A stretch of 46,334 nucleotides of DNA from Sandaracinus sp. (GTDB taxonomy: Bacteria > Myxococcota_A > Polyangia > Polyangiales > Houyiibacteriaceae), in contig PABA01000187.1 in the NCBI GenBank assembly GCA_002699025.1, forward strand, positions 1-46,334, in the 5' to 3' direction. Both the position numbers and the translations under genes were made by a program. Positions 84 to 9,589 of this stretch are shown here, piece by piece; the first letter of the stretch is position 1; each line of letters begins with the position of its first letter. The notes under the pieces were generated by a model, which did no database searches, was not told where the DNA came from, and saw only the letters and a program-made list of their open reading frames with translations.

Positions 84-2114
84 GTGACCGCCGCGCCTCC
101 GCGCCGCCGGGGCGCCGCGCCGCCCGCTGCGGCCGTCCCTCCGGCGCCCGCCATCCCCGCGCCGCCTTCGGGCTCGGCCGCCCTGCCCCCCGATCCGGCC
201 GGGCGCCTCTCCGACGCCGACGCCGAAGAGCTCCCGGTGCTCGGTCGCTTCGGCCCCTACGACATCCTCGGGCGCCTCGCCCTCGGCGGCATGGCGGAGA
301 TCCTCCTCGCGCGCCCGCACGGTTCCCAGCGGCGCCCGGTGGTGGTGAAGAAGATCCTCGCGCACTTCGCGCACGACGAGGACTTCGTCGACATGTTCCT
401 CGACGAGGCGCGCATCGGCCTGCTCCTCGACCACCCGAACATCGTCCGCTTCACCGATCAGGGCGAGGTCCGCGGCCAGCACTACATCGAGATGGAGTGG
501 GTCGACGGCGTGCCGCTTGGGCGCGTCATCCGGCGCGCGCGCAAGCATGGCGGCGTGCCCCCGCGCCTCGCCGCGGCGATCATCGCCCGCACGGCCGACG
601 CGCTGCACCACGCGCACACGCTCCGCGACGAGGACGGCCGCTTCGCCGGGCTCATCCACCGGGACGTCTCGCCGCACAACATCATGGTCGGCTACGACGG
701 CGAGGTGAAGCTGCTCGACTTCGGCATCGCCAAGGCCGACATGCAGCAGCACCACACGCAGGCCGGCGTGGTGAAGGGCAAGTTCGCCTACATGGCGCCC
801 GAGCAGTGCCACTCGAAGAGCGCGATCGACCACCGGGTCGACCTCTGGGCGCTCGGCGTGGTGCTGGTCGAGACGCTCACGGGGAAGAGCCTCTACCGGC
901 GCGACTCCGAGGCGGAGACCATGCGCGCGGTCATCGACGATCCGGTGCCGCGGCTCCGCGATCGGATGGCGGACGCGCCGCCGGCCCTCGAGGGGGTCGT
1001 GCAGAACGCGCTGGCGAAGGAGCCGGACGCGCGCTTCCGGACGGCCGCGCAGATGCGCGACGCGCTCCAGGGCTACCTCGATCGGAGCGGCGGCCCGGTG
1101 CAGCGCCCGGAGATCGAGGCCTTCATGCGGCGCTGCTTCGCGGCGGACATCCAGCGCGGCCCCTCCGTGGACTCGACGCCCTTCGGCAGCAGCTACGTCG
1201 CGCAGGTCGACGCCGAGGGGCGCATCACGGCGCCCGATCGGGCGGCGCCCCGGCCGCCCTCGGGGGCCCGGGAGCTCGACTTCGATCTGGCGGAGCCCCT
1301 CGAGGGGCTGGACGAAGGGCTCGGCGAGCTGCCGCCCGCGCCCGAGGGTCTCCCGGATCTGCCGGGCCCGCTCGGCGGCGACGTGGGCCCGGTCGCCGGC
1401 TTCGCGGACGGCGGAGGCCTGGCGGAGAGGAGCCCGCCCGGCGCCGCGGCGGGCCCGGGAGCTCCCACGCCCGCCGCCCCCGCGCGTCCGCGCCCGCGTC
1501 GCCCCGCGCCCGCGCCGGCGGCGAAGGGCGGCGGCGGCCCCTGGCTGCTCGTCGGCGGCGTGGTGCTGGCGCTCGGCCTCGTGGGCGGGGGCGTCTTCCT
1601 CTGGAAGCCCTGGGAGAGCAGCCCGCCGCCCACCGAGGCCGCGCCGACCCCGGCCGTCGACGAGGGCGCGGCCATCCTCGTGGCGTCCGTGCCGCCGGGC
1701 GCGACCGTCTCCCTCGACGGCGAGGCGCGCGGGCCGACGCCCCTCGAGCTCGGCGAGCTGGAGGCCGGCACCTACACGGTGCGCGTCGAGGCGCCGGACC
1801 ACGCGCCCTGGGAGCAGCAGGTGAGCGTGGAGGCCGGCCAGGTGGAGGCGCTCACGGCGCGGCTCGAGGAGTCCGTGCGGATCGACTTCGAGGGCGCGGA
1901 CGGGCGGCTCACGCTGGACACCGATCCGCCGACGCGCGTCTTCGTGGGGGACCGGGACCTCGGCGTGACCCCGCTGCGCGGCGTGATCGTGCCGAGCGGG
2001 ACGCTGCCGCTGATCCTCGAGCTGCCGGGGGGCGATCGGCGCCGGACCAGCGTGCTCGTCCGCGGCGGGGGCGAGGAGACGCGCGTGCACCTGAACGCGA
2101 GCGAGCTCCGCTGA
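84..2114 (+). CDS. Hanks-type Ser/Thr protein kinase with transmembrane segment and C-terminal PEGA domain
   Basis: This is a membrane-anchored eukaryotic-like Ser/Thr kinase expected to phosphorylate proteins from the cytoplasmic side. The kinase domain spans about residues 57-330: glycine-rich loop LGGMAE near 67-72, catalytic Lys89, alpha-C Glu108, HRDVSPHN at 192-199, DFG at 212-214 and APE at 238-240. All catalytic residues are present, so it should be active. A Pro/Ala-rich linker leads to one transmembrane helix at about 487-508 and a PEGA-type beta domain at about 530-600, expected outside the membrane. GTG at 84 is the first in-window start, but the frame stays open to the window edge and reads as a Pro-rich repeat, so the real start may lie outside. 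It is the first of six closely packed plus-strand genes. Substrates are unknown. Confidence 0.93.
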   Translation: MTAAPPRRRGAAPPAAAVPPAPAIPAPPSGSAALPPDPAGRLSDADAEELPVLGRFGPYDILGRLALGGMAEILLARPHGSQRRPVVVKKILAHFAHDEDFVDMFLDEARIGLLLDHPNIVRFTDQGEVRGQHYIEMEWVDGVPLGRVIRRARKHGGVPPRLAAAIIARTADALHHAHTLRDEDGRFAGLIHRDVSPHNIMVGYDGEVKLLDFGIAKADMQQHHTQAGVVKGKFAYMAPEQCHSKSAIDHRVDLWALGVVLVETLTGKSLYRRDSEAETMRAVIDDPVPRLRDRMADAPPALEGVVQNALAKEPDARFRTAAQMRDALQGYLDRSGGPVQRPEIEAFMRRCFAADIQRGPSVDSTPFGSSYVAQVDAEGRITAPDRAAPRPPSGARELDFDLAEPLEGLDEGLGELPPAPEGLPDLPGPLGGDVGPVAGFADGGGLAERSPPGAAAGPGAPTPAAPARPRPRRPAPAPAAKGGGGPWLLVGGVVLALGLVGGGVFLWKPWESSPPPTEAAPTPAVDEGAAILVASVPPGATVSLDGEARGPTPLELGELEAGTYTVRVEAPDHAPWEQQVSVEAGQVEALTARLEESVRIDFEGADGRLTLDTDPPTRVFVGDRDLGVTPLRGVIVPSGTLPLILELPGGDRRRTSVLVRGGGEETRVHLNASELR

Positions 2115-2251
2115 GGGGCCGCGCCCTCTGCGGTCGAGCGGAGGAGCCCGGGCCGCTTCGCCCCGCGTTCGGCGGCCCGCTCCGCGATGTCCGAAGGCGG
2201 GGACGGCCCACCGCTTGGTGGAACAGGTTCTCTGAGGCTATCCTCCGCCCG

Positions 2252-8303: not shown

Positions 8304-9589
8304 TGCGCTTCGGTTTCGCTTCGGTGCTCGCCCTCGCCCTCGCATGCGCGAGCGGCACGAGCCCCATCGATCCCGGCGGCCGGCGCGACGCCGCCGTGCC
8401 CGACGCGGGGCCGCCGGACGCGGGCCCGCCGGACGGCGACGGCGACGGCGTGGAGGACGCGCTCGACTGCGCGCCCATGGACCCGGGCGTCGGGCGGAGC
8501 GCCGAGCGCGCCTGCGAGGGGGAGTGCGGGGCGGGCCTCGAGCGTTGCACCGACGGCACCTGGGAGGCGTGCGACGCGCCGAGCGGCGCCGAGTGCGAGT
8601 GCATGCCGGGCGCGAGCCGGCGCGTGCCCTGCGAGCGCTGCGGCACGCGCGCCCAGAGCTGCGGCCCCGACGGAGTCTGGGCCGACGCCGGCGGCTGCGA
8701 GGACCAGGGCGTCTGCGCCCCCGGCGCCCTCGAGAGCGACGAGAGCGTCGAGTGCGCGGGGAGCGGCGCGCTCACGCGCGAGTGCGCCGAGACCTGCGAA
8801 TGGGGCGAGCCGGTCTGCGACGCCGGGCCCACCCGCCTCTGGGTCTACCCGAGCGGCGGCAGCGCCTGGCAGCGGCGGAGCTGGGACCCGGCCGGCCCCT
8901 TCGCGCCGCGCGCGCCCATCCTCGCGGCCTTCTCCATCGACGACGAGCGCGAGGCCTACGTGCTCACGGCCTCGACCTTCCACGTGCTCGCGCTCACGGG
9001 CGCCGAGCCGAGCTGGGTGCGGACGGGGCCCCTCGACGGGACGGGCCAGCTGCCGGAGCTCGCCGGGGCGGGCGCCGCGCCCCTCTTCGCCTGGTCGCTG
9101 AACCTCTCGTTCTTCGAGGACGACGACCCCGAGACGCCGGCCGGCGATCGACGCTACGAGGACGTGGTCGTGGTCGCGGAGGTCGGCGGCGCGGCGCGCA
9201 CCTTCCTCTACCGCTACGACGCCATGACGCGGCGCTTCACGTTCGAGGGGGACAGCCCGGGCGGGGACGCCTGCTGCGACTGGGAGGGCGATCCGGGCGT
9301 GACGGCCCCGTCGCCGCTCGCCGTGCGGGCGCAGTGGGTCGACACGGAGAACCTCGACCGCTGGAGCGACACCTGCCCGGCGGGGACCGAGCCCGGGGAC
9401 TTCGGCATCATCCCGAGCATCCTCGACACGGGCGAGGTCGGGGTGCAGCCGCTCTGCACCGGGCTCCTCTTCGCCGAGCGCGTCCCCCTCGCCAGCTTCG
9501 GGCCCTTCGCGGCGAGCGACGCACCGACGGCCGGCGACGTGGCCGCGACCTTCTGGGCGTCCGGCCTCTACGTGCTCCGCGCGGAGTGA
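8300..9589 (+). CDS. Lipoprotein with Asp-rich MopE-like metal-binding segment
   Basis: A 429-residue exported protein. The signal sequence (MMRFGFASVLALALAC) ends at a plausible but not ideal lipobox. Just after it come repeated PDAGPPDAG motifs and DGDGDGVEDALDC, an Asp-rich calcium-binding-type pattern typical of MopE-like proteins of myxobacteria. A Cys-rich section follows (about 70-180), then a Cys-poor domain of about 240 residues with a repeated beta pattern (LWVYPSGGSAWQRRSW, YVLTASTFHVLAL) that could be a propeller or lectin-like fold. I do not recognise the family of that domain. ATG 8300 overlaps the previous TGA by 3 nt, making this the last gene of the coupled operon. Confidence 0.78.
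   Translation: MMRFGFASVLALALACASGTSPIDPGGRRDAAVPDAGPPDAGPPDGDGDGVEDALDCAPMDPGVGRSAERACEGECGAGLERCTDGTWEACDAPSGAECECMPGASRRVPCERCGTRAQSCGPDGVWADAGGCEDQGVCAPGALESDESVECAGSGALTRECAETCEWGEPVCDAGPTRLWVYPSGGSAWQRRSWDPAGPFAPRAPILAAFSIDDEREAYVLTASTFHVLALTGAEPSWVRTGPLDGTGQLPELAGAGAAPLFAWSLNLSFFEDDDPETPAGDRRYEDVVVVAEVGGAARTFLYRYDAMTRRFTFEGDSPGGDACCDWEGDPGVTAPSPLAVRAQWVDTENLDRWSDTCPAGTEPGDFGIIPSILDTGEVGVQPLCTGLLFAERVPLASFGPFAASDAPTAGDVAATFWASGLYVLRAE

Follow-up and report, generated by a model that had tools for sequence, protein, structure and literature searches.

In type VI secretion, the threonine phosphorylation pathway is represented by TagQRST-PpkA of Pseudomonas aeruginosa and RtkS-PpkA of Serratia marcescens. 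Here, periplasmic or membrane-attached regulators (TagQRST or RtkS) act on the transmembrane Ser/Thr kinase PpkA, with RtkS binding PpkA at its periplasmic domain and keeping the kinase stable and active (PMC6082577). PASTA-type kinases (PknB/StkP) share with the kinase g4 considered below an N-terminal cytoplasmic kinase domain, one transmembrane (TM) helix, and an extracytoplasmic sensor part. Myxobacteria possess kinomes that are among the largest in bacteria, with hundreds of kinases, and the literature on the kinase sets of Myxococcus and Sorangium deals with kinase numbers and domains. For most myxobacterial kinases, we know of no input.

Here, we describe a myxobacterial gene cassette, g2-g3-g4-g5, which suggests that envelope lipoproteins control a cytoplasmic kinase. 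Its likeness to the PpkA systems is that the periplasmic part of the kinase would be met by regulators encoded nearby, which for g4 is proposed by analogy. Unlike in these systems, the tail of g4 is predicted to be disordered and bears a conserved end peptide, and the cassette further encodes an adaptor of TPR/PEGA-like type along with a TSP1-like lipoprotein. Neither T6SS genes nor Fha/PppA partners formed a recurrent family in the 47 cassette loci. Because the cassette stands outside a T6SS context, the resemblance is limited to the working principle and does not extend to demonstrated sequence homology. The initial annotation of this DNA had noted no described system of such composition; in agreement, we found no description of a conserved kinase/TPR/lipoprotein cassette in the open-access literature.

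Organization of the locus

The window, i.e., the whole stretch of DNA analyzed, is one complete contig of 46,334 bp from a 9.24-Mb genome of myxobacterial type with about 75% GC. All six open reading frames that had been proposed to form one set are on the same strand (Table 1), and the same six genes were recovered by a codon-usage gene caller, for which g1 to g6 and two other genes of the window served as the training set. A distance of 137 nt separates the end of g1 from the start of g2, and from g2 to g6 successive genes overlap by 17, 11, 4, and 4 nt. The first three values agree with the initial annotation, and the last, given there as 3 nt, is an ATGA at 8300-8303. Because the window contains comparable overlaps at other positions (28793-28796, 29611-29614, and 41710-41713), those of g2 to g6 are unremarkable when taken alone and constitute weak evidence. 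A scan for promoters and terminators gave no useful signal, the sigma-70 consensus being uninformative at 75% GC.

Table 1. Features of the g1-g6 locus (positions are those of the window)
Feature	Position	Strand	Start codon	Cassette core	Description
g1	84-2114	+	GTG (codon scoring favors a start at 237)	No	Ser/Thr kinase with TM helix and two PEGA domains (PF08308), ~1674-2075
g2	2252-3043	+	ATG	Yes	Signal peptide, TPR, PEGA-like segment, C-terminal TM helix, short basic C terminus (topology predicted from sequence)
g3	3027-3734	+	ATG	Yes	Small Cys-containing lipoprotein outside Pfam and NCBIfam
g4	3724-5634	+	GTG	Yes	Ser/Thr kinase domain, one TM helix at ~5020-5076, 185-residue Pro/Ala-rich periplasmic tail (predicted topology)
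Conserved C-terminal peptide of g4, LNSLDAFDRSVE	5596-5631	+			Proposed docking site
g5	5631-8303	+	GTG	Yes	Cys-rich lipoprotein; conserved N-terminal domain at ~5712-6284, then Cys-rich modules and TSP1-like repeats at ~7104-8180
g6	8300-9589	+	ATG	No	Exported Cys-containing protein, possible lipoprotein with weaker signal than g3 and g5

Recurrent linkage of g2, g3, g4, and g5

At least 150 Pkinase (PF00069) hits in the genome make a kinase beside a lipoprotein unremarkable, and the search was therefore begun with g3, which belongs to no known family. It covered 38 genomes including the window's own, 12 of which had a g3 match, and after gene calling, g2 proved to recur in the fetched g3 neighborhoods, as did a kinase and a g5-like protein. 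Profiles built from the first loci were then run on 184 genomes of the window's order. The g3 profile detected about 50 sites in 25 of these genomes, usually adjoining a g2 homolog, which was located within 200 bp of g3 at 44 of the 50 sites. A kinase was present within 2.5 kb at 29 of the 50 sites, compared with 5.4 to 7.7 expected by chance from the kinase density of the window's genome, and a g5-type N-domain within 4 kb at 23. Outside the loci that had trained the kinase profile, a kinase was near g3 at 21 of 42 sites (P < 2e-7). Genes outside the window were called with a home-made caller trained on the window, which fails in some loci (L047, L052, and L055); for this reason, sites were counted from profile hits. 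Many of the compared genomes are fragmented assemblies, and some of the 21 g3 sites lacking a kinase within 2.5 kb are near contig ends.

Unbiased clustering of 559 neighboring proteins from 47 loci returned the families of g3 (46 loci), g2 (41), the kinase (31), and g5-type proteins (28), the next family reaching 7. The g3 count follows by construction, since the loci were chosen by g3, and this does not apply to the other three counts. A genome rich in kinases and lipoproteins might by coincidence bring such neighbors together, as the number of its Pkinase hits and the common occurrence of Cys-rich lipoproteins beside other genes would allow, and coincidence is indeed the description that applies to g1 and g6. 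For g2 to g5, it is contradicted by linkage that far exceeds the density expectation and by a clustering that yields exactly the g2, g3, kinase, and g5 families, and we regard it as extremely improbable. g1 matches other cassette loci by its kinase domain only and falls outside the cassette kinase clade, and g6, for which no Pfam or NCBIfam family was detected, has one weak match across the cassette loci. Lacking linked homologs in other loci, both were rejected as cassette members and are local additions. The initial annotation had treated the kinases and lipoproteins as belonging together and had named dispersal of the lipoprotein homologs in relatives as an outcome that would speak against this. 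These homologs proved to be recurrently linked to such kinases and not dispersed, and the grouping holds for g2, g3, g4, and g5 but not for g1 and g6.

The loci are arranged as g2-g3-kinase, kinase-g2-g3, or g3-g2-kinase, or with a divergent kinase. Gene order and strand thus vary while linkage is kept, which favors a functional association and disfavors synthesis of the products in a fixed ratio. The latter had been suggested on the basis of the overlaps, which are ordinary and lend it no support.

Co-occurrence followed the same pattern. A g4-type kinase was detected in each of the 8 g3-bearing genomes examined and in none of the 10 g3-lacking ones, the best scores being 564 to 777 bits versus 334 to 422 bits, and the window's g4 is the best g4-type kinase of its genome (740 bits). 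The 10 g3-lacking genomes were chosen from the same order, four of them from the same family, and three of the eight g3-bearing genomes had fed the g4 profile, the other five likewise scoring at least 564 bits. Over 25 cassettes, the distance matrices of g2, g3, and the kinase correlate at 0.58 to 0.73, with none of 2,000 permutations as high, a correlation that partly reflects species relatedness. Some kinases of the cassette clade are located apart from g2-g3. Two genomes with an intact cassette (G008 and G015) each have orphans of both kinds as well, a g2-g3 pair (L093, L090) and a kinase that bears the conserved end peptide described below (L159, L162).

The envelope proteins g2, g3, and g5

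The TPR region of g2 (TPR_2, E 3e-7) is located at about 2432-2626. Within the g2 family, TPR_2 was detected in 26 of 26 members and PEGA in 10 of 26 at E ≤ 0.1 (best, 6.4e-5), and the window's copy had no Pfam match to PEGA at E ≤ 1. The earlier designation of g2 was TPR/PEGA membrane protein; the segment in question in the window's copy is termed PEGA-like here. Given the signal peptide and the C-terminal TM helix followed by basic residues, we predict a periplasmic location for the TPR part, with g2 as a periplasmic TPR/PEGA-like adaptor anchored in the inner membrane.

Both g3 and g5 possess a signal peptide with a lipobox Cys, as read from the sequence, and are classified as lipoproteins on these grounds. 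Of 45 members of the g3 family, at least 90% keep Cys20, and the lipobox Cys of g5 is invariant among 28 members. Three exported Cys-rich proteins had been listed originally, under the heading of surface lipoproteins; lipoprotein signals are present in g3 and g5, the signal of g6 being weaker. Searches of Pfam, NCBIfam, and PDB sequences returned no family for g3 and, for g5, a sub-threshold Disintegrin match in Pfam alone. g3 is predicted to fold into a beta-sandwich that includes a Cys module (pLDDT 86.5), and the g5 N-domain into an FnIII-like sandwich (pLDDT 82). Fold searches with either yielded no significant family, the matches being weak and to a widespread beta-sandwich type (for g3, the HGSNAT luminal domain at Z 7.8 and TssJ-type and transthyretin folds at Z of about 5; for the g5 N-domain, a secretin pilotin at Z 8.3 and FnIII domains). 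With regard to homology to RtkS or TagR, the second-ranked Foldseek match of the g5 N-domain was 9k1u, a complex of RtkS with PpkA (E 0.018), the fold being a common sandwich. The fold matches of g3 and the g5 N-domain were left out of the functional evidence. hhalign related g3 to the g5 N-domain with 92% probability; because the aligned part includes the signal peptide, homology between the two is unproven.

In the window's g5, the N-domain is followed by about six repeats of 58 residues each, with the form W..CGGF..C...GTQSRT...C..C...ETR.C, which read by eye as TSP1-like; Pfam made no TSP1 call for them. The tandem array at 7318-8119 shows periods of 174 and 348 nt, and the better fit of the 348-nt period (80% versus 71%) suggests that pairs of repeats were duplicated. 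g5 ectodomains are variable among loci, and g5 is sometimes encoded on the opposite strand.

Kinase g4 and its end peptide

g1 and g4 belong to the expanded eukaryotic-like kinase set of myxobacteria known from Myxococcus and Sorangium. Both match PF00069 (g1, E 6e-35; g4, E 1e-32), and their translations contain the catalytic Lys and the HRDVSPxN, DFG, and APE motifs. With a Pkinase domain, catalytic Lys, HRDxxxxN, and DFG, they classify as Hanks-type (eukaryotic-like) Ser/Thr kinases, and, as noted in the initial annotation, both are catalytically intact. A tree of 92 kinase domains places 27 of the 34 cassette kinases in one clade of 40 rows (support 100/99), with g1 outside. Assignment of g4 to the PASTA kinases was rejected, there being no PASTA match and a score for NF033483 of 247 bits against a cutoff of 450, over the kinase part only. 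A defense system (PD-T4-6, MADS, or Stk2) was likewise rejected, as the PADLOC matches fall on the two kinases, are centered on the kinase domain, and include none in g2, g3, g5, or g6.

Past the TM helix, most cassette kinases carry a Pro/Ala-rich tail of about 95 to 190 residues with almost no Cys and no domain. The peptide at its end has the approximate consensus LLxGxDxFD and occurs as LNSLDAFDRSVE in the window, LRGLDEFDRH in L046, LLSLDQFDRDLGGH in L089, and VLLGDEAFGK in L098. A close subgroup has LLLGWEE, and in several cassette kinases the tail is short or the peptide missing (L057, L096, and L127). A strict peptide pattern, defined post hoc after inspection of the tails, was present in 12 of 21 cassette kinases, where shuffling predicts 0.03 of 21, as well as in 5 of 11 other kinases of the cassette score class and in 3 of 8 lower-scoring kinases near g3. 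It was found in none of 70 lower-scoring kinases away from g3 and in none of 20 high-scoring kinase loci of g3-lacking genomes. This conserved tail-end peptide is newly recognized here. Other transmembrane kinase groups have different conserved end peptides, namely, DDLxxNPYRR (L166 and L168-L171) and KKGGPLVRSYD (Polyangium kinases beside TPR/PEGA genes, L197-L200).

Proposed trans-envelope signaling

We propose, with a probability of roughly one half, that g2 to g5 constitute a conserved trans-envelope signaling module of Sandaracinaceae/Polyangiaceae-type myxobacteria, in which the lipoproteins act on g4. This proposal builds on the observed linkage, co-occurrence, kinase orthology group, and end peptide, combined with predicted topology and folds; the localization of g3 and g5, physical contact, the direction of signaling, and a ligand are what we infer. 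g4 would be a single-pass Ser/Thr kinase with a long disordered periplasmic tail bearing the conserved end peptide, next to g2 as the putative periplasmic adaptor anchored in the inner membrane. The lipoproteins g3 and g5 would probably reside in the outer membrane, g5 presenting an ectodomain that is Cys-rich and TSP1-like. In response to a sensed change, the lipoproteins would alter their contact with the g4 end peptide, a plausible contact point for extracellular proteins controlling the kinase, either directly or via g2, and the altered contact would cluster or release g4 and thereby change its phosphorylation activity.

The identical linkage data would also fit the opposite direction, in which the kinase governs assembly, export, or display of the lipoproteins in a surface coat or adhesion, with g2 as a periplasmic assembly factor and no ligand involved, and g5 with its TSP1-like repeats does resemble a surface-coat or adhesive protein. 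However, the cytoplasmic catalytic domain does not reach lipoproteins in the envelope, and since the conserved part of the g4 tail is predicted to lie outside, a role of the tail in input fits better; we therefore consider control by the kinase in this direction somewhat unlikely. For a single kinase clade, the cassette points to probable partners in the periplasm and outer membrane along with a short conserved end peptide, and the question of what these kinases sense becomes testable with defined proteins and a defined candidate contact site.

Distribution and a wider kinase-TPR/PEGA theme

g3 represents an uncharacterized lipoprotein family, so far seen in a single order: a search of the class (318 genomes) returned the same 25 carriers, and a 379-genome sample of the phylum yielded no g3 outside this order. 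Cassettes are present in, among others, Sandaracinaceae bacteria MED-G138 and ACE_MYX11, uncultured Sandaracinus, Polyangiaceae bacterium 134-614, and Myxococcales bacterium UBA1660. One of the carrier genomes consists of just one contig, 10,327,335 bp in length.

A looser theme, the pairing of a Ser/Thr kinase gene with one for a TPR/PEGA-like membrane protein, is wider than the cassette. Strong g2-like genes outside cassettes had a kinase within about 3 kb in 19 of 20 cases, and in a second, phylum-wide g2-like set a kinase was nearby in 14 of 20 (with flanks of just 1.5 kb). Such pairs without g3 would be expected if the kinase tail and the TPR protein were the actual unit, a phylum-wide g4-g2 pair for which g3 and g5 are cargo or targets in one order. 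In this order, however, g3 is linked more tightly to g2 than to the kinase (44 versus 29 of 50 sites), and g4-type kinases were found solely in g3-bearing genomes among the 8 bearing and 10 lacking ones examined, so that we judge a unit of g4 and g2 alone to be quite unlikely. Extending the proposed action of lipoproteins on g4, it is tempting to speculate that myxobacterial kinomes employ a general trans-envelope "tail-and-hook" input, in which the disordered periplasmic tail of every kinase clade bears a clade-specific end peptide (such as LLxGxDxFD, DDLxxNPYRR, and KKGGPLVRSYD) and has a TPR/PEGA adaptor and lipoproteins to match. This generalization is tentative and, on balance, doubtful; if true, many kinases would be wired to distinct surface lipoproteins.

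TPR/PEGA-like genes that adjoin kinases in loci without g3 (L197-L200 and L208-L227) are often accompanied by another Cys-containing lipoprotein as well, and genomes of the Polyangium type encode, near the TPR/PEGA-kinase pair, a protein that contains about 85 Cys. The Polyangium lipoprotein beside the kinase/TPR pair was considered as a g3 homolog and rejected, homology not being demonstrable. Near 6 of the 47 cassettes, including L095, L098, L108, L115, and L119, a family that by eye resembles FHA/sigma-54-type regulators is encoded on the opposite strand, and these neighbors are a possible output of the cassette.

Other genes in the window

A single open reading frame on the minus strand (36771-38543) fuses acetate kinase (PF00871) and phosphate propanoyltransferase (PF06130, PduL type). 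Within 40487-43803, a DinB and FGE-sulfatase protein (EgtB-like) adjoins open reading frames that by eye resemble EgtC and EgtD, and these are possible ergothioneine genes. Two further open reading frames on the minus strand (28793-30183), overlapping by 4 nt, resemble TatC and TatB by eye.
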